The notes under the pieces are model-generated. The model did not search any database. It saw nothing but the letters and a program-made list of their open reading frames with translations, and was not told the DNA's origin. A DNA stretch of 64,000 bases from Myxococcales bacterium (GTDB lineage: Bacteria > Myxococcota_A > Bradymonadia > Bradymonadales > Bradymonadaceae): positions 1 to 64,000 of the forward strand of contig SKON01000036.1 in the NCBI GenBank assembly GCA_007120035.1. Reading direction: 5' to 3'. Shown here piece by piece: positions 13,759 to 27,937 of the stretch (the stretch's first letter is position 1; every line of letters starts with the position of its first letter). Position numbers and translations under genes: made by a program.

Positions 13759-14604
13759 TCACTCGGCGACGAGGATCTCGATGTCGATGGGGGGGGACTC
13801 GAAGTGGGCGATGCCGTGGAACATGAGCTGGAAGACGAGGGTGGTGGTGCCCATGTCGGAGCCCGGGATGAGGTGGACGTGGTTGCCGTGGGAGTCGATG
13901 TCGAGGAGTTCGGGGGCGCCGTCGGCGAACCGGGCGTGGAAGACGAAGTGTCCGTAGTCGATGTCGAGCTCGTCGCCGTCGCCGTCGAGCCAGATGGCGC
14001 CGAAGGAGTGGTGGGGGCCGTCGGCCTCCAGGGGCATTAACTCGCCGTTCCAGGAGTCTCCGTCGGTGGAGGCGAAGGGGGTTTCGCCGTCGGCTCGGTC
14101 CAGAAGTGTGAGGTCGTGGACGTCGGGCATGTCCGGGGCCTGGTTGGCGTTGTCGGCGTCGTCGACGACGTTCACGGGGAGGCTGACGGTCTCGTAGATC
14201 AGGCCGTCGTTTCGGTAGAGTGCGACGAAGATGGCCGTGGTGCCCGGTTCATCGCCGGGAACCAGGTGGAAGTGATTGCCGTGGTTGTTGATCTCGATGT
14301 AGGTGTCACCTTCGACGGCGATGCGGGCCCTGAGTTCGTACACGTCGTAGTCGATGTCGATCTCGTCGCCGTTTGCGTCGTTGAACTGGGCGCCCAGGGA
14401 GAGGTGGTCGCCGTCGACCTCCAGGCTCGGCAGGGAGCCGTGCCAGTGGTCGTGGTGTGCGGCGGCGACGGCCTCGTTGTCAGGTCGGACCAGGAGGACG
14501 AGCTCGTCGATCTCGGGGTCGGGGCCGTTCTCGTCTTCGCCACAGGCGACGAGGGGGATGGTGAGGAGGGCGATGAGGGCGACGATGAGTAAGCGAAACG
14601 GCAT
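13759..14604 (-). CDS. His/Asp-rich lipoprotein, two-repeat (paralogue 1)
   Basis: A 281-aa lipoprotein. ATG 14604 has ggag nine bases upstream; the longer frame to 14673 lacks support. The signal is MPFRLLIVALIALLTIPLVAC with lipobox LVAC. The mature part contains two copies of a ~100-residue module. Each has a start like HDHWHGSLPSLEVDG, an acidic core (DANGDEIDIDYDVYEL) and an end like NHGNHFHLVPGDEPGTT. The His clusters and Asp-rich loops suggest metal binding, which is inference. The next gene upstream on the same strand encodes a clear paralogue, so the pair arose by duplication. I do not recognise a named family. Confidence 0.8.
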   Translation of the reverse strand: MPFRLLIVALIALLTIPLVACGEDENGPDPEIDELVLLVRPDNEAVAAAHHDHWHGSLPSLEVDGDHLSLGAQFNDANGDEIDIDYDVYELRARIAVEGDTYIEINNHGNHFHLVPGDEPGTTAIFVALYRNDGLIYETVSLPVNVVDDADNANQAPDMPDVHDLTLLDRADGETPFASTDGDSWNGELMPLEADGPHHSFGAIWLDGDGDELDIDYGHFVFHARFADGAPELLDIDSHGNHVHLIPGSDMGTTTLVFQLMFHGIAHFESPPIDIEILVAE

Positions 14605-14700
14605 GGAACAGACTCCGAGAGGACAAGGTAGACCAGCGGATGGTTGGGTATCTGAATTCTGGCGGGGTTTCAAGAAGTACGGTCAGAACCAGAACCGCGA

Positions 14701-14732
14701 CCGCCCCCGCCAGACGAATCCGGCGAGGGCGG
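14701..14732 (-). terminator. Hairpin between the two His-rich lipoprotein genes
   Basis: An 11-bp stem with one mismatch (14701-14711 with 14722-14732) lies between the paralogues. No proper T-tract follows on the minus strand (tcgcggttctgg), so it could be an attenuating hairpin or an mRNA stabiliser rather than a terminator. Confidence 0.35.
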
Positions 14733-14783
14733 CGGTTTCCCCTCTGGAGGGAAAATGTCGGTGCCGAGGCACCAGGTGTGAAC

Positions 14784-15656
14784 TCAGTCGACGACTTCGA
14801 GGCCCAAGGCCGGGGCTTCCCACTCGACGTCGCCGTCGTGGAGGAACTGAATGATGATCGAGGTGGTGCCGACGGCTTCGCCGTCGATGTCGAGGTGGTC
14901 GCTGTGGGCGTGGACGTCGACGATGGTCTCGTCGGCGCCGTCGGCGTACCGATAGCCCACGGAGTAGTGGTGTCCGTCGAGGGCGATGAGCTGGCCGTCT
15001 TCGTCATAGAAGTTGGTGTCTACTTCGAGCTCGCCGCCGAGGGAGATGGTGAGCGGTGAGCCGTGCCAGTGGTTGCCATGGACGTCGGCGAGCTCGTTGG
15101 TGGTGCCCCGCTCCACGAGGACGAGTTCCGAGATGTGGATGTGGTCGTGGCCGTGATTGTTGTTGTTGGTGTTGTGGTGGTCATCGCCGGCGACGGTGAC
15201 GGCCAGCGGGGGCGTCTCGTAGACGGGATCGTCGTGGTGGAGGAGCTGGAAGACCACGGCGGTGGTGCCGGCGGTGTCGCCCGGTCGAAGGTGGAGGTGG
15301 TCGCCGTGGGAGACGAGCTCGATGAGCTCGTCGGCGCCGGACTCAAAGCGAGCGGAGAAGCTGTAGTGGGAGTAGTCGATCTCGACTTCGTCGTCGTTCT
15401 CGTCGAGCCAGCGAGCGCCGAGGGAGAGGCGGTTTCCGTCGACCTCGAGGGCCGGGAGGCTCCCGTGCCAGTGGTCGCCGTGGGTGTCGGCTGCGACTGC
15501 ACCATCGTCGTCTCGGTTGAGGAGCTCGACGTTGACGACGGTCGGGTCGTCGCCGTGGTTGTCGTGGTTGTCGCCCTCTTCTTCGCCGCAAGCCGTGAGG
15601 CCGGCGGAGAGGAGGAGGGCCATGGCGAGGAGTAGCGGTTTGGAGTGGGTGAGCAT
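14784..15656 (-). CDS. His/Asp-rich lipoprotein, two-repeat (paralogue 2)
   Basis: A 290-aa lipoprotein. ATG 15656 is preferred because ggagaag lies eight bases upstream; a TTG precedes it directly. The signal ends in the lipobox LTAC (Cys at about residue 23). Two modules like those of the downstream neighbour are visible (GDHWHGSLPALEVDG ... SHGDHLHLRPGDTAGTT, and GNHWHGSPLTISLGG ... HAHSDHLDIDG). They are joined by a very His/Asn-rich linker (DDHHNTNNNNHGHDHIH). High His content in linker and loops is typical of periplasmic or surface Zn/Cu/Ni chaperones, but no defined site can be assigned. A strong sigma70 promoter with an overlapping palindrome lies upstream. Confidence 0.8.
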   Translation of the reverse strand: MLTHSKPLLLAMALLLSAGLTACGEEEGDNHDNHGDDPTVVNVELLNRDDDGAVAADTHGDHWHGSLPALEVDGNRLSLGARWLDENDDEVEIDYSHYSFSARFESGADELIELVSHGDHLHLRPGDTAGTTAVVFQLLHHDDPVYETPPLAVTVAGDDHHNTNNNNHGHDHIHISELVLVERGTTNELADVHGNHWHGSPLTISLGGELEVDTNFYDEDGQLIALDGHHYSVGYRYADGADETIVDVHAHSDHLDIDGEAVGTTSIIIQFLHDGDVEWEAPALGLEVVD

Positions 15657-15713
15657 CAATACTTCTCCATGTGAATGACTCAGGAACAGGGCTACGTGAG
15701 CCGAGTGGGGGTG

Positions 15714-15954: not shown

Positions 15955-16503
15955 TCAGAGGGTGAGGCGGAAGACCACGCGATCTTGTTCGGGGACAAGG
16001 GAGTCGGGGATGTTCCAGTCGGCGATGCGGGTCCGGATGCAGCGGTGGAGATCGGGGGGGAGTTCGCTGTCGTCGGCGTTGATGGAGACGTCGTCGATGA
16101 GGCCGTCGCGGACGTGGAGGGTGACGGCGATGCGGTAGGTTGTGCCAGGGTCCCGAGGGCAGGCTTGCAGGGAGGTGGCTTCGCCGCGGGCCCAGCCGAG
16201 GAGGCGGCTTCGCTGTCGAGGGTCCGGGGGAGGAGGACTGTCGGGGAGGGCACGGCCTGAGGGGCCGGGGTCTCGTTGGGCCGGTTGGGACCGGGGGGGT
16301 GGGGCTTCGGCGAGCTCTTCCGGTTCGGGTTCGGTGGGGCAGTCGAGGACGATCTGGGGAGAGGGATCGGGGCATTCGACCTCGGCCACCGGAGGGGGCT
16401 CGTCGGGCTCATGGCAGAACTCGCCGCCGAGGAGCATGCCGACCAGGAAGGCCATGACGACGGCGGCGGCGGTGCCCGCTCTCTGTGCCCAGGGGTTCTC
16501 CAT
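15955..16503 (-). CDS. Membrane-anchored TonB/AgmX-like C-terminal domain protein
   Basis: A 182-aa protein with one N-terminal TM helix (about residues 10-27), a Pro/Glu-rich periplasmic linker (~35-100) and a C-terminal ~70-residue domain. That domain has the pattern of the TonB/AgmX C-terminal family: YRIAVTLHVRDGLIDDVSI, then LPPDLHRCIRTRIADW and IPDS. Two Cys (~119 and ~157) may pair. The family links inner-membrane energy to the outer envelope; AgmX is known from myxobacterial gliding. It is the last gene of the minus-strand motor operon, three bases after the preceding stop, so a coupling role in that machine is a reasonable inference. Confidence 0.75.
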   Translation of the reverse strand: MENPWAQRAGTAAAVVMAFLVGMLLGGEFCHEPDEPPPVAEVECPDPSPQIVLDCPTEPEPEELAEAPPPRSQPAQRDPGPSGRALPDSPPPPDPRQRSRLLGWARGEATSLQACPRDPGTTYRIAVTLHVRDGLIDDVSINADDSELPPDLHRCIRTRIADWNIPDSLVPEQDRVVFRLTL

Positions 16504-16506
16504 GGG

Positions 16507-17457
16507 TCAGCGGAGCATCCGGCCGATCTCGGCGGCCACGGAGATCGCGGCGTTCTCGCGGCGGTTGGAGAAGGCCGTGCAGAGGTCCACGAGCTGACCG
16601 TGGCCGCCGTTCTGGCGAAGCTGGCTCATCATGGGGCCGAAGAAGGCGTGCTCCGAGGGTTCGAGGAGGTCCAGGTGATTGGCGGGGAAGTTGGGCTCTC
16701 GCATGCAGCGGTCGACGAAGGCGTCGTAGCTCGCGCCTTCCTCGGTGGCGACGGCGACGTGCATGATCTGGGAGGGGGCGACGCCGGAGGGACCGGGCAA
16801 GGAGAGCCAGGAGGCGAAGCCCGTGTCGTCGTCGACGTCGGTGAGGTAGTGAGCCGGTCGCTGGCCGTCGACGGCGCAGCTGGAGCTGTCGTGGGCGCAG
16901 TGTCGGGAGCTGCCGGTGAGGTAGAAGACCACGAAGCCGTCGGCGGCGTCGCGGTAGTAGGGGATGGCCTCGGGAGGGGACTGGAAGGGCTGGAAGATGG
17001 TCTCTCGGTCGAGACGAGCGCCGAGAGTGGCGAGGTTCTCGGTGTCGTTTGATGCCTGGCCGTCGAGGTGGGCGAGGCCGTCGTCGGAGACGTAGTAAAC
17101 CAGGGCTTCTTCCAGAGAGTGGAAGGGCGCGTGGGGGTCGTCGTAGCCGTAGATCAGGGGGGGGCGATCGGACTGCTGGCGGTACATGGGGGCTACTGCG
17201 ACTCTGTTGATGGTGATGAGCTGAGCCGCCAGGCCGGCCTCGACGTAGGCCATGAAGGCGGCGTAGCCGGGCATGATGTTGACGGCGCCCCGAGGGAGAT
17301 CGACGAGGATCAGGGCGTCGACGACCCGGGGGATGGGGTCGCCGTTGCCGCCGTTGGAGCTGTTGGCGGGGTCTCGATCCCGGATCAGGGTGCAGGCCGT
17401 CAGGGAGGAGGCCAGGAGCAACATGGCCAGGGAGAGTGCGATTCGTCGAGCGTTCAT
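16507..17457 (-). CDS. Lipoprotein of the motor operon, unknown family
   Basis: A 316-aa lipoprotein with lipobox LTAC (Cys at about residue 22). After a short Ser/Asn/Gly linker, the core begins VVDALILVDLPRG, followed by alternating strands and helices that look like a von Willebrand A-type alpha/beta fold but lack a clear DxSxS metal site. Four or so Cys (around HCAHDSSSCAVDG and RCMREP) suggest disulfides. The start overlaps the preceding FliF-FliG-like gene by four bases (ATGA), which argues for tightly coupled expression with the motor. I cannot assign a function. Confidence 0.75.
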   Translation of the reverse strand: MNARRIALSLAMLLLASSLTACTLIRDRDPANSSNGGNGDPIPRVVDALILVDLPRGAVNIMPGYAAFMAYVEAGLAAQLITINRVAVAPMYRQQSDRPPLIYGYDDPHAPFHSLEEALVYYVSDDGLAHLDGQASNDTENLATLGARLDRETIFQPFQSPPEAIPYYRDAADGFVVFYLTGSSRHCAHDSSSCAVDGQRPAHYLTDVDDDTGFASWLSLPGPSGVAPSQIMHVAVATEEGASYDAFVDRCMREPNFPANHLDLLEPSEHAFFGPMMSQLRQNGGHGQLVDLCTAFSNRRENAAISVAAEIGRMLR

Positions 17458-19238
17458 CCGATCACCTCGGTGGTGTCCTGCGCCTGGCCCCGGGGTTGGG
17501 CGCCACGGCGCAGAGCGTCAGCGTTATAGGTAGTGATGTCGTAGCCCTCACGACGCAGTCCGGCGAGCACTGCAGAGGAGAACCGGTTGCGGGCCTCCAA
17601 AAAGTCCGCGCGGGAGCTCGGGAGGTCCAGGGAGAGCTCCGTGGAGAGGGCCTGCCGGCGTGACGCCGGGGCCATTCGGAGCAGGTGGTCCGCCGTGGCG
17701 GAGTCGATGCCGCGGAGGAAGTCCGTCATGGTGTTGACAGGGAGGCGGTGGACGGCGTTGGCCAGGGACTCTTCGGGGAGGAGGGGCAGGGCCGACTCCA
17801 GGCAGATCTGGCCCAGGACGGCCTGGGCGACGTCGGGCTTCTTCTTCTGGAGGTCCCGCAGGACCTCTTCCTGTTCCTGGAGAGACATGGCGTCGACCAT
17901 CTCGACCAGGAGGTTTGCCTGGCCGGCAGCCTGACGACCGGCGTCGATGAACTCTTCGGCGATCTGGCGCAGGCGGCCGGAGAGCTCCCGAGACTCGGAC
18001 TTGGAGAGAGTCTCCGAGGAGCTGGCCTCGAGGAGCAGGCGCCGGCGCTCGTCGGTGCCGAGGCTCTCGAGATAACGGGAGCGGAGCACGGGGGCGATGC
18101 GGGAGAGGACGAAGCCCCGCTCTTTCTGGGTGGTGCTGGCCAGGAGGGCGTCGACCTGCTTGAGGTTGAGGCTCTCCAGGAAGTCCCACTCCGTGTCGGA
18201 GCCGCCGTCATCGACGACGAGCTGGGCGGCATGGCGAGACCGGGCCCGCTCGGCGATGTCGTTGGCCTGCTCCACGGAGAGGGGTTCGTGGTGGCGGCCG
18301 ACCTCTTCGCTGACCTCGGCGAGGCGGGCACGGAACTCGGGGTCCCGGCGGAGGTCGGCTATGATCTCGGGGCCCACCAGGCGGATCAGGAGGGCGACCT
18401 CGGCGGGGTCGTCGTCGATCCACCGTCGGAGCATGCGGTTGAGGACGGACCGGGATCGGGTGAGATCGGCCCGAAGCTTCTCGGCGTCGGGCATGGTCGG
18501 GGACGCCGGGGAGCCCTCATCGTCTTTGTCGGCCCGGGGCTCGGCGGCCTTGTCGTGCATGGCGGCGAGCTGGCGGAGGAGGAAGAGAATCAAAGCGACG
18601 AGGATGAGGAGGGTGAGGATCAGGGGGATCCAGGGGAGGATCTCACGCCACAGAGGGGCCTCTTCGGCCTGGGCCTCGACGACCTCCGGGGCGGGCTCCA
18701 CGGGGGTCGGCTCGGCGATGGGCTCCGGGACAGGGGGGAGCTCGGGGAGCTGCCGGGGCGGCTCCGGGGTCCGGGGCGGCGGCGTGGGCATCGGCGGGAG
18801 CTGGGGCTGGGGGAAGTCCAGAAACTCGGGGCGGACTTCAATAGTGGGGGCCAGGTATTGGAGGCGGAACTGGAGCATCCGTGGGATGTTGGCCTGGAAG
18901 CTCTCGGGGAGGTTGCTGTCCATGAGGACCGTGGCCTCGATGCGCTGGACCTCGACCTCGAACCGGGATCCCGCGGCGCCCTCGAAGCCGGGGAGGACCT
19001 CGCCGACAGACCGGGGCTGGCCGACGACGGCGCGGAGCTCGACGAGCTCGCATCGGCCGGGGCAGAGCCGGCTCAAGACCGACTCGATCTCGGCCCGAGC
19101 CTGGGCTTCGGCGCTGGACCTGGCGTTCTCCCGGGCCATGTTGCCGGCCCCGCGTTGGGCCTCGGCCTCGGGGAGCCCCATCAGGGCTGCCAGGGCGCAG
19201 AGGGCAACGAAGAGACCTATGTTAAGGAGTTTCTTCAT
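17454..19238 (-). CDS. FliF-like/FliG-like fusion membrane protein
   Basis: A 594-aa candidate rotor protein. Signal peptide at residues 1-27. A periplasmic domain (~40-145) contains VQRIEATVLMDSNLP, matching the RLSVAVLVDG strand of FliF, followed by a helix and strand as in the FliF membrane-proximal ring domain. A Pro-rich linker covers ~145-195 and a TM helix ~203-222. The cytoplasmic part has a FliG-N-like DPAEVALLIRLVGPEIIADL (~277-296) and a FliG-M-like LKQVDALLASTTQKERGFVL (~359-378), where the usual EHPQ is NLKQ. A FliG linker and C-terminal domain cover ~436-568, ending with RRQALSTELSLDLPSSRA and EARNRFSSAVLAGLRREGYD. It overlaps motB (17 nt) and the next gene (4 nt). No FliM, FliN or separate FliF is nearby. 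Confidence 0.85.
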   Translation of the reverse strand: MKKLLNIGLFVALCALAALMGLPEAEAQRGAGNMARENARSSAEAQARAEIESVLSRLCPGRCELVELRAVVGQPRSVGEVLPGFEGAAGSRFEVEVQRIEATVLMDSNLPESFQANIPRMLQFRLQYLAPTIEVRPEFLDFPQPQLPPMPTPPPRTPEPPRQLPELPPVPEPIAEPTPVEPAPEVVEAQAEEAPLWREILPWIPLILTLLILVALILFLLRQLAAMHDKAAEPRADKDDEGSPASPTMPDAEKLRADLTRSRSVLNRMLRRWIDDDPAEVALLIRLVGPEIIADLRRDPEFRARLAEVSEEVGRHHEPLSVEQANDIAERARSRHAAQLVVDDGGSDTEWDFLESLNLKQVDALLASTTQKERGFVLSRIAPVLRSRYLESLGTDERRRLLLEASSSETLSKSESRELSGRLRQIAEEFIDAGRQAAGQANLLVEMVDAMSLQEQEEVLRDLQKKKPDVAQAVLGQICLESALPLLPEESLANAVHRLPVNTMTDFLRGIDSATADHLLRMAPASRRQALSTELSLDLPSSRADFLEARNRFSSAVLAGLRREGYDITTYNADALRRGAQPRGQAQDTTEVIG

Positions 19239-19992
19239 GTTCCGGGCTCGGTGCAGGAGGAGTCAGGACCTGTCGGGTCGGTGTGTTCAGGATGTGTTCG
19301 ATGCGCTCCGCCGGGAGGGTGTCGATACGGATCACTACTCGGCGGTTGGCGGAGCGGGCTTCTTCGAGCTCCTCGGGGGTCAGGGTGGCCAGGTGGCCTT
19401 CGTCGAGGAGGTCGATGTCCGTGGCCGGGCGGGTGTCGGCGAAGCCCTCGACGGACATGCGGCGCTTGTCGAGGCCGGCGGCGGCGAGCTCTTCCATAAC
19501 GTGGATGGCCCGGGAGGTGGAGAGCTCCCAGTTGGATCGGAACCGGCCGGAGGCGATGGGGACGTCGTCGGTGTAGCCCTGGATGACGAGGCCGTAGTTG
19601 GGGCCGAGCTTCTCGGCCAGGTGCAGGCGGATAGGCCCGAAGACCTCCTCGGCCTCGGGGCGAAGCTCGGCGCTGCCGGACTCGAAGAGCAAGGCGTTGG
19701 AGAACTCGATCTTCAGGCCGTCGTCGTCGAGGAAGGTACGGACCTCGCCGGTGAGGGTCCGCTCTTCGACGATCTGGTCGATGGTGTCCTGGACCTCGTG
19801 GAGGTTGCCCAGGCGTTCTCCGGTGAACGCCTGGATCAGGAGGTCGTACTTGGTCTGGGCGATGGTGGAGATCGAGAGCAAGAGGATCATGAAGGTGAGG
19901 ATGATGGTCATCATATCGGCATAGCTGATCATCCAGCCGATATTCTTCTCCTCTTCGTCCCCGCCGAAGCGATCGTGAGCCAGGAAGTTCAC
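19222..19992 (-). CDS. MotB-type stator protein with OmpA-like domain
   Basis: A 256-aa B-subunit of an ion-driven stator. A short cytoplasmic N-terminus is followed by one TM helix containing WMISYADMMT, where Asp26 corresponds to the ion-binding Asp of MotB/PomB. The periplasmic OmpA/MotB domain shows GYTDDVPI, SNWELSTSRA, RMSVEGFADTRP and ANRRVVIRI, the peptidoglycan-binding signature. A ~40-residue segment after the TM helix could be the plug/linker. This is a genuine MotB, not ExbD/TolR, because it carries the peptidoglycan-binding domain. Its start overlaps the MotA stop by four bases (ATGA). Confidence 0.93.
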   Translation of the reverse strand: MNFLAHDRFGGDEEEKNIGWMISYADMMTIILTFMILLLSISTIAQTKYDLLIQAFTGERLGNLHEVQDTIDQIVEERTLTGEVRTFLDDDGLKIEFSNALLFESGSAELRPEAEEVFGPIRLHLAEKLGPNYGLVIQGYTDDVPIASGRFRSNWELSTSRAIHVMEELAAAGLDKRRMSVEGFADTRPATDIDLLDEGHLATLTPEELEEARSANRRVVIRIDTLPAERIEHILNTPTRQVLTPPAPSPEHEETP

Positions 19993-20771
19993 CGGGAGGT
20001 CCCTCCCCGGGTGCCGTCGGCGCCGTTGATGGCGCGGGCGCCCTCCTTGCCGACGATCTGCTGGATCTCGTGGAGGGGGCGGCGACGGGCGATCTTGAGC
20101 ATGGTCTCGGCGACGAGGTTGAGGTTCTCGGCGCGCTGAGAGCGGCGATCGGCGATGAGCCGGGCGATGGGGAGGTAGAGGAGGTGGGCCAGGAGGAGAC
20201 CGTAAAAGGTGGTCAAGAGGGCGATAGCCATGCCGGGGCCGAGTTTTTCGAAGTCCCGCATGTTGGCCAGGAGGAGGATAAGGCCGATGACGGTACCGAT
20301 CATGCCCATGGCGGGGGCGAAGTCGCCGAGGCTCTTGAAGACCTTCTCGCCGGCCCGGTAGGTGTCGAGCTGTCGGCGGCCGACGATGAGGGCGTCGAGC
20401 TCGATCTCTTCGGGGTCGTCCTGCTGGATCACCTGCTGGCCGAGGTGTCGAAAGAGGGCGTCTTTCTCGCCATCTACGATGGCGGCGGCCTCGGAGGGGC
20501 GATCGGAGCGGACGGCTCGGCCGAAAGCGATGAGGTTCTCGGCCAGGCGGCGACGTTCACGCATGGGGTTGTTGATCAGGCCGTGACCCAGCGCCTTGAT
20601 GGCGCGGCCGAGGGTGGAGAACCGGTAGGTCATGATGGCGAGGCCCAGAGGGGTCCCGCCGAGGAGGATCAAGGCGTAGTAGTTCAGGAACCCGTCGAAA
20701 TCCATCGACATGTACCGGAAGGCGAGGAGGAAGCTCGCCACGATGATCATTGCGCCGATGAGAACGTGCAT
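19989..20771 (-). CDS. MotA/PomA-type stator protein
   Basis: A 260-aa A-subunit of an ion-driven stator with four predicted TM helices (about 3-18, 30-49, 150-172 and 180-202). Family motifs are YYALILLGGTPLGLAIMTY after TM1, then FAPAMGMIGTVIGLILLL and LGPGMAIALLTTFYGLLLAH in TM3-TM4. The last two are characteristic of MotA/PomA rather than TolQ/ExbB. The cytoplasmic loop between TM2 and TM3 is charged, as needed for contact with FliG. It lies directly upstream of motB (ATGA overlap) and 53 bp downstream of a TPR lipoprotein gene in the same operon. Confidence 0.93.
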   Translation of the reverse strand: MHVLIGAMIIVASFLLAFRYMSMDFDGFLNYYALILLGGTPLGLAIMTYRFSTLGRAIKALGHGLINNPMRERRRLAENLIAFGRAVRSDRPSEAAAIVDGEKDALFRHLGQQVIQQDDPEEIELDALIVGRRQLDTYRAGEKVFKSLGDFAPAMGMIGTVIGLILLLANMRDFEKLGPGMAIALLTTFYGLLLAHLLYLPIARLIADRRSQRAENLNLVAETMLKIARRRPLHEIQQIVGKEGARAINGADGTRGGTSR

Positions 20772-20824
20772 GGTGAATCCGGGGAAGAAGAATGCTCCAA
20801 CAAGGGGGCAGTGATGCTCCGAGG

Positions 20825-21574
20825 TCAGTCGTCGTCGTCATCGCCGTAGGAGTCGAGGCGCCGAAGAGCCTCGATGATCGGTTCGTTGTCGGGATCTATC
20901 TGCAAGACCTGTTCCCAGGCTTCTCTGGCGAGGGCTTCGTTGCCGAGTCGGAGCCAGAGGGTGCCCTTCATGGACTTGATGCGGACGTCGTTGGGGTAGG
21001 CTTCTTCGAGGTCGACGAGGTGGATCATGGCGGTCTCGTAGCGTCCGGCCTCGAAGAGCTCTTGGACCTCGGAGATGCCGCGGAGGTAGCTGGGACGAGA
21101 GGGGGCGGGGCCGGCCTCGGGGCGGTCCCGTTCGCGGCGCTCCACGTCGGCGCCTTCGCGGCGGGCCTGTCGGTCCAGGGTGTGTTCGCCGTCGACGTAG
21201 ACGCCCTCGCGCTCGAAGTCGGGGTCGGTGCGGCGGAGGTGGTCGATGAGCTCGCGGTCGGCGCGGGTGAGGCTGTCGTGGGCCCGGCGGACGTCGCGAT
21301 CGCCGTCTCGCAGGGGGATGCGGACTTCGTAGCCGCGGGCGACCTCGGGGAACTCGACCTCCCAGTCCCGGGCGCCGTCGCTCATGCGGATCACGTAGCG
21401 TTGGGGCGGCACGGAGCCGTCGCCGCGGTACTCCGGGGCCGTGGTGGCGGCGCTGGGGACGACGATGGTGGTCTCCGGCTGCTGCTGTGGCGAGAGGGCC
21501 GAGCAGCCGGCGAGGAGGGTCGCAAACGACCCGGCGAAGGCCAGGGTGAGGAGTCGGTGCAGGGGAGCTCTCAT
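20825..21574 (-). CDS. Lipoprotein with C-terminal TPR repeats
   Basis: A 249-aa lipoprotein (lipobox LLAGC, Cys at about residue 24). The middle is a charged beta-rich region (YVIRMSDGARDWEVEFPEV, RGYEVRIPLRDGD). The C-terminal ~80 residues form two TPR-like helix pairs (AGRYETAMIHLVDLEEAYP, LGNEALAREAWEQVLQIDPDN), ending in an Asp run. It lies between the FlgO-like gene (gap 7 bp) and motA (gap 53 bp). TPR lipoproteins often hold multi-protein envelope machines together; the exact role is unknown. Confidence 0.8.
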   Translation of the reverse strand: MRAPLHRLLTLAFAGSFATLLAGCSALSPQQQPETTIVVPSAATTAPEYRGDGSVPPQRYVIRMSDGARDWEVEFPEVARGYEVRIPLRDGDRDVRRAHDSLTRADRELIDHLRRTDPDFEREGVYVDGEHTLDRQARREGADVERRERDRPEAGPAPSRPSYLRGISEVQELFEAGRYETAMIHLVDLEEAYPNDVRIKSMKGTLWLRLGNEALAREAWEQVLQIDPDNEPIIEALRRLDSYGDDDDD

Positions 21575-21581
21575 GGTCGTC

Positions 21582-22811
21582 TCACCAGTTGAAGGTGGCC
21601 CGGGCTTTCCAGCCCAGGCCCCCGAGGTCGAAGCCCGCGAATTCGGTGGGCATGAAGTAGAAGAGGCTGGCGCCGGCGCCGAGGCGGAACTGCATCACGG
21701 CGTCGAAGCCCCATTCGGCGTAGAAGGAGTTGCCCTCGGTGCCGGCGAAAAAGCCACCCACGGCGGGTCCGGTCCGGAAGGTGGGCTGGTTGAGATTTCG
21801 TTGGAAGAGCTCGACCTGGAAGGTTCCGTGGACGAAGGTGCCCAGGATGCCGTTTTCGGAGAAGTTGGCGAAGCCCTCGGCGCCGACGCCGAAGGAGTAC
21901 CGAAGGTCTGGGCCGAACCGTTCGTAGAGGCGGTAGCCGATGGTGGCGCCCGCCAGCCCGCCCAGGGGCGAGTCGTAGGGGATGTAGCCGGCGCCGCCGT
22001 AGAGGATGTGGCCGTAGTAGGGCCGGGCTTCGAGCTTTCTCTCGAGCTCCCGGACCCGCTCGGAGCGGCTGACGACGCGGTCGCCTGTGCGGAGGATGGC
22101 CGCCGTGGTGGCGTCGGATCGGTAGGTCTCGGTCCAGAGGACGGCGCCGTCGTCGGCGCGGAAGATCTCGACCTGCATGGCGACGATGTTGGTGCCCGGG
22201 AAGAAGGAGAATCGGGCGTCGAGGAAGGCTTTGGCGCCGATGCGCTCGGCCTCGGCGACGAGTTCCTCCTGGTGGACCAGGCCCATGGTGACGACCCAGT
22301 CGCCGTCTTCGACACGGGAGCGCATGGAGTTGCAGGCCACGCACCGTTTGACTGTGACGTCCGTGTGGGTCGCCAGCGCGGTGATCAGGGTGCTCTCGAC
22401 GAACTCGCCGAATTGGGCGCTCAGGTTGGGGGTGAGGTTCATGGTGCGGAAGGCCACCGGCGAGAAGGCCCGGACGTTTAAGGTGGAGACGTCGGCGATG
22501 ACCTCGTCGATCATCTCCTCGGCGAGCTGGTAGATGTGGATCTGGTGCTGGCCGGTCTGGATCTGGCGTTGAACGGTCTCGTGGATCTCGCGCTGGGTGG
22601 GGCGGGCCCGCTCCTGGGGGCGGACCTGCTCTTCGGGCTCTTCGGCCCGGGGCCGCTCCGGTTGGGGCTCGGGCTCCTCGTCGGTGTGGTGTTCCACGGA
22701 GACGTCGTCGCCCCAGTCCTGGGCGGCGGCGGGTCCTGCGAGGAGCAGGCCGAGGGCGACGATCAGGGCGATCAGCGCCGGTGGGAACCCGTTGTTGGGG
22801 GGAAAGCTCAT
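21582..22811 (-). CDS. FlgO/CsgG-like domain plus outer-membrane beta-barrel
   Basis: A 409-aa exported protein (signal peptide ending AAA-Q about residue 31), then an acidic/Pro linker. Residues ~85-235 resemble the FlgO/CsgG/TolB-like fold: LAEEMIDEV, FGEFVESTLITAL, RCVACNSMRSRVEDGDWVVTM, then AERIGAKAFLDARFS and VEIFRADDGAVLWTETY. FlgO belongs to the outer-membrane ring of some flagella. The last ~140 residues alternate in the Gly/Tyr/Phe pattern of an outer-membrane beta-barrel and end in NW with an aromatic terminus. The start is the ATG at 22811, overlapping the upstream stop by one base; an in-frame ATG at 22823 is possible. This is a likely outer-membrane part of the motor complex. 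Confidence 0.7.
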   Translation of the reverse strand: MSFPPNNGFPPALIALIVALGLLLAGPAAAQDWGDDVSVEHHTDEEPEPQPERPRAEEPEEQVRPQERARPTQREIHETVQRQIQTGQHQIHIYQLAEEMIDEVIADVSTLNVRAFSPVAFRTMNLTPNLSAQFGEFVESTLITALATHTDVTVKRCVACNSMRSRVEDGDWVVTMGLVHQEELVAEAERIGAKAFLDARFSFFPGTNIVAMQVEIFRADDGAVLWTETYRSDATTAAILRTGDRVVSRSERVRELERKLEARPYYGHILYGGAGYIPYDSPLGGLAGATIGYRLYERFGPDLRYSFGVGAEGFANFSENGILGTFVHGTFQVELFQRNLNQPTFRTGPAVGGFFAGTEGNSFYAEWGFDAVMQFRLGAGASLFYFMPTEFAGFDLGGLGWKARATFNW

Positions 22812-23830
22812 CAGAAAGCCCATCCGAGGGTGAAGTCTACGCCCATGAGGCCACGGCGTTGCATGTACTCCCCCAGTGACCCCCGGAGGGGTATATCATA
22901 GGAGCCGGGCCCGTAGCGCGCTTGATTGTAGATGACGAAGCCGTGGCGAAACCCGAGGCGAACCAGGCCGCCGAAGTCAGACTGGGCTTCGGCGCCGACG
23001 GCGGCGGTGAGGAGGTGATAGATCACCTGGAGGTCGGCGGGGCCACCGGTTTCGCCGGGACGGGTGGTCATGCCCCGGGGGCGAAGGTGACCGCGGCCGT
23101 AACCGACGCCGACGGAGATGAAGGGGCTGAACCAGGCGCGGGAGGGCAGGAAGGTGCCGTGGATGAACCCGTAGGAGACGGCGTGTGAGCCCTCGACAGA
23201 GGGGAGTTGGGCGTCTTCCGGGAAGTAGGAGATATCGAAGAAGTCCCGGACCCAGGTGGCCTCGACGCGAAAGTGGGTGTGGAGGGTGCGGCTGCCGATG
23301 AACCCCAGGCCCGTGGGGTGGACCTGACCGCCGAGCATCCAGGGCCTGTCGAGGCGGCGGACCTCTTCGACCCGGCGGGTTTGTAGCCGCTCGACCTGGC
23401 GGTAGACGGCCTGCTCTTGTTCGGCGATCTCCAGGTGGCGGCGGTGACGGTTGCGGGCTTTCAGGCGTTCGATGCGACACCGACGATCGGCGCCGCAGGC
23501 GGCGTCGGCGCCGCCGTCGTCGAGGGGGGAGGCGGCGACGGGCTCCGGTTCGGGGGGAGGCGCGGGCGCGGGAGCAGGAGCCGGCGTCGGCTGGGCCTGG
23601 AGCATCTGCTCGGAGTCGTCCCACTCTCCCTGCTGGAGGCGGGCGATCTGCTCCGGGGAGAGGCAGACGGACTGGAAGCATTGGAGGCGGCCCTGGCAGT
23701 CGCTGGCGAAGGCGCAGTTCTGGCCGCGTCCGCCGGGGGTCATCAGGCAGGCCAGGGCGACGGCCGGGGCGAGCCCGACGGTCAGGAAGACCAGAATCGC
23801 CAAGAGGTCTGTGATGGTTCGACGTCTCAT
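22811..23830 (-). CDS. Outer-membrane barrel protein with Cys-rich N-terminus
   Basis: A 339-aa exported protein. The signal peptide ends near ALA (residue ~27). A small disulfide-type module follows (CLMTPGGRGQNC...CQGRLQCFQSVC). Then come a Pro/Ala linker, a charged coiled-coil-like stretch (~115-160, RRCRIERLKARNRHRRHLE) and a ~170-residue C-terminal region with beta-barrel alternation ending LGWAF, an outer-membrane insertion-type terminus. It overlaps both neighbours (ATGA with the upstream TPR lipoprotein, TGATG with the FlgO-like gene). Together with the two other predicted barrels it suggests an elaborate outer-membrane base. Confidence 0.75.
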   Translation of the reverse strand: MRRRTITDLLAILVFLTVGLAPAVALACLMTPGGRGQNCAFASDCQGRLQCFQSVCLSPEQIARLQQGEWDDSEQMLQAQPTPAPAPAPAPPPEPEPVAASPLDDGGADAACGADRRCRIERLKARNRHRRHLEIAEQEQAVYRQVERLQTRRVEEVRRLDRPWMLGGQVHPTGLGFIGSRTLHTHFRVEATWVRDFFDISYFPEDAQLPSVEGSHAVSYGFIHGTFLPSRAWFSPFISVGVGYGRGHLRPRGMTTRPGETGGPADLQVIYHLLTAAVGAEAQSDFGGLVRLGFRHGFVIYNQARYGPGSYDIPLRGSLGEYMQRRGLMGVDFTLGWAF

Positions 23831-25701
23831 GGTTCGACCTCTCGCTGAAAGTCATGAACCAGGGTCGTCGGCGGGATGGGATCGACGGGGATCAAGAGCA
23901 GGGAGTCGATGGGAGCCCACCGCAGGCGTGGCGCCGGGGCCTCGTCGTCGGGGGGGGCCAGGGAGACGGAGACCGTGCCGAGGACCAGGGCGGAGGCGTA
24001 GGACTCATCGCCCACGCGGCGGGCGTAGCCCCGGGGGTGGTCCTCCAGGAGCTGGCTCGCCAGGGTGTAGAGGTCCGTGAGTTGGTCGCTGACGGCGCTC
24101 TCCGGGGCGTCGCGGAGGAACCGCTGTGCGTGCTCGACGATCCGGACCAGCCAGACCTGCCGGAGCGCACGGGCGGGGCCGTCGTCGCCCCACTCGGCCA
24201 TCATGGGGAGCATGGCCCGCAGGACCCGGGCTAGCTCGGCGTCGCGGTGGGCGTAGAACTGGGCGCGACGCTGGCGAGGGATGGCGCTCTCCAGGGCGTC
24301 GCTGCGTCGGGTGAGCTCGTGGAGGTGGTCGTCGAAGGCCCGGCGGTCGTCTTCCAGGAAGGCCGCCAGGGCCAGGACGGCGTGGATTCGGGGGAGCCGG
24401 CGGGCGTCGCGGGTCTCTTCCAGGAGCGGGGTGGCGAGCTCCCGGGCGACCTCGGGGCGGCCGGCGTCGAGGGCGACCTCGGCGAGCTCTCGGCGTCGCT
24501 CGGAGAGGCCCGCCCGCGGGCCGAGTTCCTCCAGGAATTCCAGGGTGCGCTCGTCGACGTCGAACCGGACCAGCTCCTGGAGGACCTCTTTGTAGAGGGC
24601 TCCCAGGAAGGGGTCTCGGGGACGCTGACGGTCGGAGAGGGCCTCCCTGGCGAGGCCCAGGAAGCGATCGCTGTGGCCGAGGTATCGGTTGGCCGAGGCG
24701 GTGAAGTAGAGGTGGGCGTTGAAGAGCGGCGAGGATCGGCGAAGGGGGGTGGCGTCGTCGGCGGCGACTTCGAACCAGCCCTGTCGCCAGGCGATGCGGG
24801 TGCGGAGGTATCGGGCGGTCTCGGCGACGTCGATGACGGGGTGATCCGTGAGCTCCGAGAGGGCGTAAGTGGCGGCCTGGGGGTCATCGAGCTCGATGGC
24901 GAGGCGAGCTTTGCGGAGGGCCTGGCCCCATCGGGTGATGGCCAGGCGCTCGTGCTCCTCGGGGGCCTCGGTGTGTCGGAGGTCTTCCAGGGCTTCTGCG
25001 GCCATTTCAAGGGCCTCGTCGCGGCGATCGTCGTCGAGATCGAAGTCGCCGTCGAGGATGGCGAGGACGAGATCGGCGCGATGGACCTTGACGAGGAGAT
25101 CGTCGGGATCGGCCCGGAGGATGTCTCCCGTAAGGGCCCACTCGGTGAAGAACTCGTCGAGGAGATCGTCGCTGAGGCGGTCGAGGAGATCCTCGCACTC
25201 GTAGGGGACCTCCGATGGGGCGGGCCACTCGTCGGGCCAGCGCTCGTCCGACGGGGGCCACCGGATCAGGTCGTCTTCAACGGCGGCGGGGTCGCGGGAG
25301 AAGTAGGTCCGAGAGGCCAGGCGGGTGTGGATCGTGCCTCGGTGCCACTGCCGGTCCCCGCCGAGGCGCGAGGTGGCGACCAGGCGCAGCCGGCGTTGGT
25401 CTTCCAGGCGGAGGCGGCGGTAGATGGCCAGGGCTTCGTCGTCGTTGGCGAGCAGGGCAGAAGGAGGGGAGATCTCCTGGCAGTTCGCCAGCTGAAGGAA
25501 GGCTCGCCCCAGCTCGGTCCAGGCGTCGGGCCGGTGGGAGTGCTCCTCCAGAGAGAGGGCGTGGTCGAAGCGGGAGAGGTCGGCCTGATGAAAGGCGGTG
25601 AAGAGCTCCCGGCGCTCCGGCCCGTCGGCCGTGAGGGGCACGCAGGCCGAGAGGGACATGGATGCCAAGAGCGCCGCAGGCAGCCAGAGACCGGGCTTCA
25701 T
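23827..25701 (-). CDS. Large TPR/solenoid lipoprotein
   Basis: A 624-aa lipoprotein. The ATG at 25701 is used because it overlaps the upstream stop (ATGA) and is followed at once by a signal with lipobox LSAC; upstream in-frame codons to 25836 add unrelated residues. The mature protein is helical throughout with irregular TPR-like pairs (for example DAWTELGRAFLQLANC, FNAHLYFTASANRYLGHSD and ELAEVALDAGRPEVARELA). It probably acts as a periplasmic scaffold in the motor operon. There are no catalytic motifs. Confidence 0.75.
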   Translation of the reverse strand: MKPGLWLPAALLASMSLSACVPLTADGPERRELFTAFHQADLSRFDHALSLEEHSHRPDAWTELGRAFLQLANCQEISPPSALLANDDEALAIYRRLRLEDQRRLRLVATSRLGGDRQWHRGTIHTRLASRTYFSRDPAAVEDDLIRWPPSDERWPDEWPAPSEVPYECEDLLDRLSDDLLDEFFTEWALTGDILRADPDDLLVKVHRADLVLAILDGDFDLDDDRRDEALEMAAEALEDLRHTEAPEEHERLAITRWGQALRKARLAIELDDPQAATYALSELTDHPVIDVAETARYLRTRIAWRQGWFEVAADDATPLRRSSPLFNAHLYFTASANRYLGHSDRFLGLAREALSDRQRPRDPFLGALYKEVLQELVRFDVDERTLEFLEELGPRAGLSERRRELAEVALDAGRPEVARELATPLLEETRDARRLPRIHAVLALAAFLEDDRRAFDDHLHELTRRSDALESAIPRQRRAQFYAHRDAELARVLRAMLPMMAEWGDDGPARALRQVWLVRIVEHAQRFLRDAPESAVSDQLTDLYTLASQLLEDHPRGYARRVGDESYASALVLGTVSVSLAPPDDEAPAPRLRWAPIDSLLLIPVDPIPPTTLVHDFQREVEP

Positions 25702-26345
25702 CGAAGCCTCCGCTCGGGGGACCAGCCCACGCCGATCAGGGGGGCGAACCCGAAGGAGGGCGTCCAGCCCCGTTGTCGTCTCTCCAGTTGTGCCGTCCAT
25801 TGCAGGTCCAACTTGATCTGGATGCCGTGCCGCCAATGAGTCAGAAACGCGATCCCCGGCGTCACCGTGGGGATGACCCGTCGCTCAGCAAGGGTGATGC
25901 CGCCGTGGAAGCTCACCTGAGGATCGAAGTGGACGACGAAGCGGTCAAGGGTAAGCACCTTGCCGTAGCCCCAGGACCAACGGACGCCGCCTGTGAAGAG
26001 TGCGTCCGGGGCCCGCAGGTCGGGGATCAGGCTCGTCTCGTCGCGGATCCCTTCAGCGGTTGGACTGAGCCAGCTATGAAAATTATGCCCACGAAGTTCT
26101 ACGCCGAGGTTCTCGGAGAGGAAGAAGGAGACGTCGGCCCCGTAGCCGACGGTACGATAGAAGTCGTCTCGGAAGAGGGTGACGAAGGTGGCGTGGGCGG
26201 CGATCCGGCCTTCCTTTTCGGCGAATCGGGGCTGCACGGTGGCCCGAGAGGTATCGTCGGCGGCGGCCTCCAGAGATCCCAGGAGTCCGACGGCCAAGAT
26301 CAGCAGGGCGGTCAGCGATGTCGCTGGTCTCATCGCCATTGGCAC
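25698..26345 (-). CDS. Predicted outer-membrane beta-barrel protein
   Basis: A 215-aa exported protein with signal peptide (residues 1-28, AAADD cleavage region). The rest alternates polar and hydrophobic residues with Tyr/Trp/Phe girdles (VGYGADVSFFLSENLGVEL, GGVRWSWGYGKVLTLDRF, LQWTAQLERRQRGW), as in small ~8-10-strand barrels. Related barrel proteins often sit next to myxobacterial motility or secretion genes. The start overlaps the upstream lipoprotein by 16 bases and the stop overlaps the next gene by four. Confidence 0.75.
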   Translation of the reverse strand: MPMAMRPATSLTALLILAVGLLGSLEAAADDTSRATVQPRFAEKEGRIAAHATFVTLFRDDFYRTVGYGADVSFFLSENLGVELRGHNFHSWLSPTAEGIRDETSLIPDLRAPDALFTGGVRWSWGYGKVLTLDRFVVHFDPQVSFHGGITLAERRVIPTVTPGIAFLTHWRHGIQIKLDLQWTAQLERRQRGWTPSFGFAPLIGVGWSPERRLR

Positions 26346-27937
26346 CTCTCGGCGTCCAGCCAGGACTCGTAGCGCTCACCGTTGGCGGCGATGAAGGGAG
26401 CTTCGCAGTAGGCGTCGCAGACCTCATAGACGTAGAGCACGGACTCTCGGCGGTAGGTGGTGAAGCTGACGAAGTCCTGTCGAGGGATGGTGGCGGTGAT
26501 GCCGATGTCTCTTCGCCAGGCCCAGGTCTCGCGATAGAAGAACTGAAAGTAGCCGGGACCGACCATGGCCTCGATGGTCGGAGAGTGGCTGCAGAACCGG
26601 ACGTACTCCGGGTCGGGGGCAGCGTTGGGGGGCGGGATCGTCAGGGGCATCATGCCCTCGCCGTCGGTGGTCCTCAGGGGGAAGTGGAAGTGGACCACGC
26701 TCTCCAGAGCGGGCAAGAAGTTATCGTCTTCCAGGGGAGCCCAGGGGACGCCCTCGTCGCCGATGTAGAGAGCCCGGATGGTGTTGGAGGCGATCAGCCA
26801 GGTGAAGAGCTCCGTGTCCGGTCGGTCTTCGACGTAGAAGGCCAGGTTACCCAGATCCTGAAGGTGGTTGTTTGGCGGCGCGAGCTCCACGTTGTTCAGG
26901 TAGACCAGGACCACCGTGGTGTCTTGATCCCAGATCTCGGCTCGTTGGTCGATGGCGGCCTGGATCTGCTGGATCGGTAGGGTGGAGTGGGGGTTTTGAG
27001 AGCAGCCGTTCTCTTGCTGGCCCTCTTGATCGAGGGGGCGGAAGGTGCCCAGGACGTGATGGGGCGCCGGGCGTTGGCTCAGGGCGTCGGCGATGGTGGA
27101 GGTGATCTCGGAGATGATGCGTTCACAGCGGGATTCGTTGACCACCTGGAGATCGGCGATGAAGGCGATCATTGTGGGGTGGTTGATGACGGGGACGTCC
27201 TCGTCGATGCGTTCGCCGTAGAGCATGGGCCCCGGTTGTAAGTGGGCCGAGACTTGATCGCCGTCGCGGTCGGAGCGGTGGGGTCGAACCACCATACATG
27301 GAGTGTCTTCACTCCACCCCTGGGGCAGAGGGACCGGATCGTGGAGGGAGGAGAAGTCGACGTTCGGGATGGTGACACCCTCGGCTCCACAGCCGTGGTG
27401 GACGGGGACGTCGGCCATGCCCCACTGAAAGGATCGGCGCAGGGGGATGTCCTCATCGGCGAAGAAGTCGAAGAGGTAAGGGCGGACGGACCGGTTGTTG
27501 TCGATGGCGATGGGATCGATGGCGAAGGTCACGGGGGCTTCGTGGAGCCGGGGCTCAGTGGCGTTGAAGATCCCGTGGCGGCGGTCCACGGCCCGAAGGG
27601 CCGGGCCCGACTCAGGGGGCTCCCACCGACCGGGGATCTGAAACTGGACACAGGTGTAGATCCGGTCGCAATCGAAGGGCTCGTGGGGAAAGGCGGTATC
27701 GGCGAGGTCGAGGGGCTGAAACTCGCCGTCGATGAAGAGCTCGAAGTGGACCCTCCGGAGCCGGGCGTCGTCCTGGATCCGCCACACCAGAAAGGTCAGG
27801 TCCTCCTGGTCGGAGTAGACCACGTCGAAGCCCCGGGGGGCGTAGGGGCTGCGCTCGAACTCAACGAAGGAGCAGCTCGTCAGAAAGACAGAGAGACCCA
27901 GCGCGACGGGGAGGAGTGATGTATGGGGACCGCCCAT
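26330..27937 (-). CDS. Lipoprotein of unknown family, first gene of motor operon
   Basis: A 535-aa lipoprotein with lipobox LTSC (Cys about residue 22). The N-terminal ~130 residues are beta-rich, possibly an Ig-like domain (GFDVVYSDQEDLTFLVWRI). The central part (~240-420) is alpha/beta with a core resembling vWA-like folds (HPTMIAFIADLQVV, TTVVLVYLNNVEL), and scattered Cys may pair. It resembles the other unknown lipoprotein (16507-17457) in layout but not in detectable motifs. It heads the tightly packed operon; a 78-bp gap separates it from the WH-TM2 gene upstream. Confidence 0.7.
   Translation of the reverse strand: MGGPHTSLLPVALGLSVFLTSCSFVEFERSPYAPRGFDVVYSDQEDLTFLVWRIQDDARLRRVHFELFIDGEFQPLDLADTAFPHEPFDCDRIYTCVQFQIPGRWEPPESGPALRAVDRRHGIFNATEPRLHEAPVTFAIDPIAIDNNRSVRPYLFDFFADEDIPLRRSFQWGMADVPVHHGCGAEGVTIPNVDFSSLHDPVPLPQGWSEDTPCMVVRPHRSDRDGDQVSAHLQPGPMLYGERIDEDVPVINHPTMIAFIADLQVVNESRCERIISEITSTIADALSQRPAPHHVLGTFRPLDQEGQQENGCSQNPHSTLPIQQIQAAIDQRAEIWDQDTTVVLVYLNNVELAPPNNHLQDLGNLAFYVEDRPDTELFTWLIASNTIRALYIGDEGVPWAPLEDDNFLPALESVVHFHFPLRTTDGEGMMPLTIPPPNAAPDPEYVRFCSHSPTIEAMVGPGYFQFFYRETWAWRRDIGITATIPRQDFVSFTTYRRESVLYVYEVCDAYCEAPFIAANGERYESWLDAERCQWR

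Follow-up and report, generated by a model that had tools for sequence, protein, structure and literature searches.

The window analysed here, a stretch of 64,000 nucleotides, carries an operon of 11 ORFs between positions 15955 and 27937, all of them on the minus strand and all found at the coordinates given in a first-pass annotation of this DNA. Listed from the first gene to the last, they are:

26330..27937, minus strand: 535-aa lipoprotein of no known family, first gene (lipobox LTSC; orthologues at the same position in 11 genomes)
25698..26345, minus strand: 215-aa outer-membrane beta-barrel (TIGR04565 OMP_myx_plus; possible start ATG at 26333)
23827..25701, minus strand: 624-aa lipoprotein of no known family (lipobox LSAC; ORF open to 25836, 669 aa)
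22811..23830, minus strand: 339-aa exported protein (signal peptide) with Cys-rich N-terminus and a possible C-terminal barrel
21582..22823, minus strand: 413-aa exported protein with an LpoB/FlgT/GNA1162-like (CsgG-type) domain and an 8-stranded OmpA-like barrel (predicted from model and Foldseek)
20825..21574, minus strand: 249-aa TPR lipoprotein (lipobox LAGC; Pfam TPR_14, 2.9e-5)
19989..20771, minus strand: MotA of the PomA/MotA type (PF01618; Pro153, Thr188, Pro201 and Arg88 conserved)
19222..19992, minus strand: MotB with Asp26 and an OmpA-like peptidoglycan-binding domain (MotB_plug, OmpA)
17454..19238, minus strand: candidate rotor of 594 aa, FliF/FliG-like (by profile, fold and profile-profile comparison)
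16507..17457, minus strand: 316-aa lipoprotein of no known family (lipobox LTAC)
15955..16503, minus strand: 182-aa protein with a single TM, a Pro-rich linker and a C-terminal domain weakly AgmX/PglI (TonB-like) (NF033768)

The first-pass annotation described nearly all gene ends as overlapping. This holds for 7 of the 10 junctions, but the other three have gaps of 3, 7 and 53 bp, taking the ATG at 25701 as the start of the 669-aa ORF, which leaves a product of 624 aa with the lipobox LSAC. All four lipoproteins it counted have a lipobox, and none of the 11 ORFs encodes FliM, FliN, export apparatus, rod, hook or filament, just as it had claimed. In Pfam, no family was found for the operon proteins other than MotA, MotB, the TPR protein and, below threshold, the rotor. 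Downstream of the operon (13759-15659) lie two tandem lipoproteins rich in histidine, with HGDHWHGS-type repeats and a weak match to Strep_his_triad. These proteins and an upstream HTH/TM2 gene were excluded from the system because they accompany the operon in the nearest relatives only.

Among 58 genomes searched, the window's own included, the rotor was present in 17. When the whole neighbourhood was looked for in relatives, as the annotation had proposed, all 11 genes turned up with their order unchanged in 11 further genomes, which belong to two families (G005, G006, G010, G012, G013, G016, G018, G019, G043 and G049, plus G002, where they are spread over two contigs); further cases are interrupted by contig ends. 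Since all 11 genes recur in this order, the set is not the product of chance. The upstream and downstream neighbours are not common to G005, G010, G012, G043 and G049, and this change of flanking genes between genomes sets limits for the block that agree with those of the annotation.

The stator proteins are the most clearly recognizable part of the operon. MotA matches PF01618 (MotA_ExbB) with 1.4e-22, and MotB matches MotB_plug (1.1e-12) and OmpA (1.4e-13). Against the PDB, the MotA profile finds PomA/MotA structures with values from 1e-28 to 1e-25 (PomA, 1.5e-28) and TolQ/ExbB only at about 1e-4. The maximum-likelihood tree places operon and flagellar MotA together against 23 ExbB/TolQ-type sequences (support 100/100), with the branching order inside the MotA side unresolved and some branches long. 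An ExbB/TolQ-type stator was rejected on the basis of this ranking and this tree. Pro153, Thr188, Pro201 and Arg88 are conserved in MotA; the equivalent of the second torque charge, Glu98 in E. coli numbering, is not kept. MotB conserves Asp26 and the peptidoglycan motif TDD..SNWELS..RA, in line with what the annotation had said of MotB. By these sequence comparisons, the stator is of the flagellar PomA/MotA type with ion-path and peptidoglycan-anchor residues kept, and a MotA pentamer around a MotB dimer is to be expected from homology.

The 594-aa protein was called a FliF/FliG-like rotor in the annotation, and the comparison with both families was carried out by profile, fold and profile-profile searches. 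Its layout comprises a signal region or helix, an RBM-like domain (~40-140), a Pro-rich linker, a TM (~203-232) and a FliG-like N-M-C part (~250-580). In Pfam, the window protein has only sub-threshold matches to FliG_C (0.0018) and MgtE_N (0.0034); in its orthologues FliG_C passes the cut-off (e.g., 4.7e-7 in G002). A profile built from the alignment of 16 orthologues matched FliG M-C structures in the PDB (3ajc, 2.3e-6; 1lkv, 3.5e-5; 4fhr, 5.2e-5) over about 205 columns and no MgtE structure. The AlphaFold model (mean pLDDT 79; pTM 0.40, which makes the domain placement uncertain) has an alpha-beta domain at ~40-140, a Pro-rich linker of low confidence, a membrane helix at 203-232 and, on the cytoplasmic side, helices only. 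When it was compared with the PDB by Foldseek, full-length FliG ranked at the top (8umx_B, 346 columns, 9.3e-7), and FliF RBM3 structures came second and weaker (E from 0.012, for 7d84, to 0.03; probability 0.99-1.00). The RBM3 assignment is a result of the fold search only (E ~0.01), in which other ferredoxin-like folds follow at 0.07. No YscJ_FliF match was found at the rotor locus, and the full FliF MS-ring (RBM1-3, two TM) is not matched, the rotor having a single RBM-like domain and a single TM beyond its signal region.

Natural fusions of flagellar FliF and FliG were found in two operon-bearing relatives, G043 and G049, each as one open frame within the flagellar cluster (L120:1014-3626, 870 aa; L121:993-3572, 859 aa). 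In a profile-profile comparison, the rotor is collinear with the natural fusion from TM2 through FliG (E 1.5e-6, probability 90), the sequence identity between rotor and FliG being about 14%. The fused rotor may have evolved from such a flagellar fusion. At the positions aligned with EHPQ, the FliM-binding motif of Thermotoga maritima FliG, the rotor consensus reads differently. In the torque helix, the acid equivalent to Asp289 (Glu534) is invariant in all 14 rows covering the position, and the Arg281 and Arg297 positions are not kept in register. Taken from profiles and model together, the protein appears to be a full-length FliG joined to a shortened FliF, of which one RBM-like domain and TM2 remain.

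On the outer-membrane side, the annotation had named a FlgO/CsgG-like protein and two further barrels. The first description stands for the fold of the 413-aa protein but not for its sequence, which has no match, FlgO, FlgT and CsgG included. In the model (mean pLDDT 72), a domain similar to LpoB, FlgT and GNA1162 precedes an 8-stranded OmpA-like barrel (Foldseek: LpoB 4.4e-5, OmpA 5.2e-5, FlgT 1.1e-3). As for the two barrels, the 215-aa protein matches TIGR04565 OMP_myx_plus (8.7e-13, below the family cut-off, which the G043 orthologue exceeds), but the 339-aa protein has a signal peptide and no family match, and calling it a barrel is a guess. The weak AgmX/PglI-type tail of the 182-aa protein was detected as a sub-threshold match with NF033768, which served to look for a GltG/GltJ-type TonB-like C-terminal domain: the window member has an E of 0.057 (below cut-off), and 5 of 12 orthologues reach E<=0.1, with 0.0031 as the best value. 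Searching the PDB with the profile of the 316-aa lipoprotein (A6) gave nothing useful, and a search of a viral fold library gave no match below 0.001.

Weak rotor matches beside MotB led to a divergent version of the system in 24 more Myxococcota genomes (families f3, f19, f22, f24, f27, f29 and f51). Its gene order, taken from three loci read at length (G029, G035 and G051), is CsgG-like protein, TPR lipoprotein, MotA, MotB and rotor, with a few clade-specific genes; L073, L074 and L076 are loci of this second clade. Its rotor aligns with that of the first clade over nearly the whole length (hhalign probability 98.5, 3.5e-15). The second-clade rotor profile (A5) did not find FliG in the PDB, and the protein has a weak MgtE_N match only. 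The hosts are mostly flagellated, with FliG absent from 6 of the 24, three of which are at least 90% complete. The first-clade core, from the CsgG-like gene to the 182-aa gene, was also found over two contigs in a genome of family f54 (G364) that has no true FliG.

The annotation regarded the operon as one without a flagellum. This is true of the operon itself and of many hosts, but the host of the window does have a flagellum: a cluster on another contig (C199) contains FliF, FliG, FliM, FliI, FlhA, FlhB, FlgI and FlgK with its own MotAB, and no basal-body genes are linked to the operon. In that cluster, a second MotB-like gene (L038:10618-11286) does not have Asp at the ion-binding position (FTALSMIL). 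Five genomes contain the operon and no other MotB, flagellar FliG or flagellar FliF: G002 (93% complete), G006 (99%), G013 (96%), G016 (99%) and G018 (99%). The sole MotB match in G002 belongs to the operon itself, whose two halves lie on separate contigs. Operon and flagellum are both present in G005, G010, G043 and G049; G011 has the flagellum only and G008 neither. We read the operon as separate from the flagellum because the same block is found with changing flanks and because hosts without flagella keep it; as far as gene content can tell, it is independent of the flagellum.

The genomes without flagella keep a second FlhA, a FliP, a short SctJ-like protein and a FliN-like protein. At L069 (contig C123 of the window's genome), L070, L079 and L080, an FlhA-like gene lies away from other flagellar genes, with FliP, SctJ-like and FliN-like genes on other contigs. 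Since this set is also present in G008 and G011, which have no operon, and is unlinked to the operon elsewhere, we interpret its genes as the scattered core of a separate type III secretion system.

From these data, we consider it probable, at the level of sequence and model comparison, that the operon encodes an ion-driven rotor-stator machine built from the engine of the flagellar motor and separate from any flagellum. MotA5MotB2 units anchored to the peptidoglycan would conduct ions and turn, with their cytoplasmic face pushing on a ring of rotor subunits at its FliG part, a step in which we have fairly good confidence. The periplasmic domains of the ring, with the lipoproteins and the TonB-like protein, may transmit a turning or pulling force to the complex of outer-membrane barrels, for which we see even chances. 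The machine could tentatively serve for gliding on surfaces, or for displacing surface adhesins or structures of prey contact. The motor is likely to have no switch, since the operon has no FliM or FliN and the EHPQ motif is not kept. We infer rotation, force transfer and gliding from sequence and structure comparison. With both Myxococcota clades considered, we lean slightly towards the view that the flagellar engine has been put to a second, widespread use. MotAB would turn a fused FliF-FliG ring that drives an outer-membrane complex; export gate, rod, hook and filament would all be missing from this machine, which would serve for gliding, for moving adhesins or for contact with prey.

The same genes could be arranged otherwise. 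MotAB could act as a Tol/Ton-like energiser, powering outer-membrane transport, assembly or constriction via the TonB-like protein and the lipoproteins, with the FliF/FliG-like protein as a fixed scaffold or load sensor. The TonB/AgmX-like C-terminal domain, the LpoB-like domain and the several lipoproteins and barrels would suit this role, but we think it unlikely, given a MotA of flagellar rather than ExbB/TolQ type, a MotB with a peptidoglycan anchor and a FliG fold beside MotA that has no known role in Ton/Tol systems. The presence of a flagellar cluster in the genome of the window, and of the second FlhA, FliP, SctJ-like and FliN-like set in the tested family-f1 relatives, could point instead to an accessory or alternative motor part of the flagellum or of the scattered secretion core. 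Both versions are disfavoured and were rejected, the flagellar one by its distribution, many hosts having no flagellar FliG or FliF, and the other because that core occurs in the operon-less G008 and G011, is unlinked and has its own SctJ-like ring protein, which makes a part of this kind very improbable.

Another possibility concerns the rotor itself, whose cytoplasmic domain could be an unrelated helical repeat or an MgtE_N-type domain, with no FliG rotor at all. In the window protein, MgtE_N does come close to the score of FliG_C, and it is the only match, a weak one, in the divergent clade. Against it, the orthologue profile matches FliG and no MgtE structure, the fold search puts FliG first over 346 columns, and the alignment from TM2 through FliG is collinear; we give this interpretation a very small probability. 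As the flagellar cluster is absent from many hosts, the operon could also be the decaying remnant of a lost flagellum. This is hardly credible, since the 11 genes are intact and collinear across two families with key residues kept, and the operon is present beside flagellar genes in the window's genome (G000), G005, G010, G043 and G049. A reading in which FliF or FliG had no counterpart in the predicted structure, which the annotation itself had considered, is not what was found, as FliG ranks at the top by fold and FliF RBM3 follows more weakly.

Published phenotypes include flagella and gliding in Persicimonas, weak gliding in Bradymonas and gliding in Lujinxingia (PMC7188933). Lujinxingia-like genomes carry the operon but no flagellum, and gliding there would agree with a role as gliding motor, provided that the phenotyped strains, a tiny sample, correspond to these genomes as we infer; type IV pili would explain the gliding of Lujinxingia-like bacteria equally well. 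In a 2025 survey, 11% of non-motile species had a rotor protein but no filament, and the question was raised whether such rotor proteins serve another function (PMC12199754). The operon offers a concrete and conserved test case, a stator and a FliG-type rotor with fixed partners kept in lineages without flagella. Should the rotor prove to turn, MotAB would have a use in a rotor-stator machine other than the flagellum. Gliding or predation in Bradymonadia-like bacteria would then have a possible motor, and discussions of flagellar evolution would gain a case bearing on the "half a motor" question. No description of the operon was found in the open-access full texts searched, most subscription papers and preprints being beyond reach.

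Among known systems, the Agl-Glt machinery of Myxococcus xanthus has the same general plan, with an ion-driven stator, a TonB-like protein, TPR proteins and outer-membrane barrels (PMC3169522). AglRS fall in the ExbBD/TolQR-type (GIT) clade, and the known non-flagellar MotAB relatives lie outside the flagellar stator clade (PMC12505986). AglR, AglQ and AglS are of TolQ/TolR (GIT) type, whereas MotA and MotB of the operon are of flagellar type. We know of no FliG-like rotor in the Agl-Glt machinery. The channel subunit likewise separates the operon from ExbBD-TonB and Tol-Pal, not being of ExbB/TolQ type. The operon MotB resembles ZorB models of Zorya, but a Zorya identity was rejected, since MotA barely matches ZorA (0.0084) and no ZorC, ZorD or ZorE match was found in the ten operon proteins scanned, which did not include the 215-aa barrel. 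GldLM of Type 9 secretion and gliding is an ion-driven 5:2 motor driving an outer-membrane machine (PMC13104615), a likeness to the machine predicted here; the stator of the operon differs in being of MotAB type, and no Gld/Por family match was found in its proteins. The 413-aa protein shares an FlgT/LpoB-like fold with the Vibrio H-ring proteins FlgT and FlgO, but it has an integral 8-stranded barrel and no sequence match to them or to CsgG. The flagellar motor has the same stator type, FliF TM2-like and FliG-like rotor parts and a MotB anchored to peptidoglycan. The differences are that FliM/FliN, export gate, rod, P/L ring, hook and filament are missing from the operon, that a single RBM-like domain and a single TM are all that remains of FliF, that the FliM-binding motif is not kept, and that there are hosts without flagella. 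While its parts have known relatives, the machine predicted from sequences and models fits no known system, and it is probably an undescribed motor of the cell envelope.
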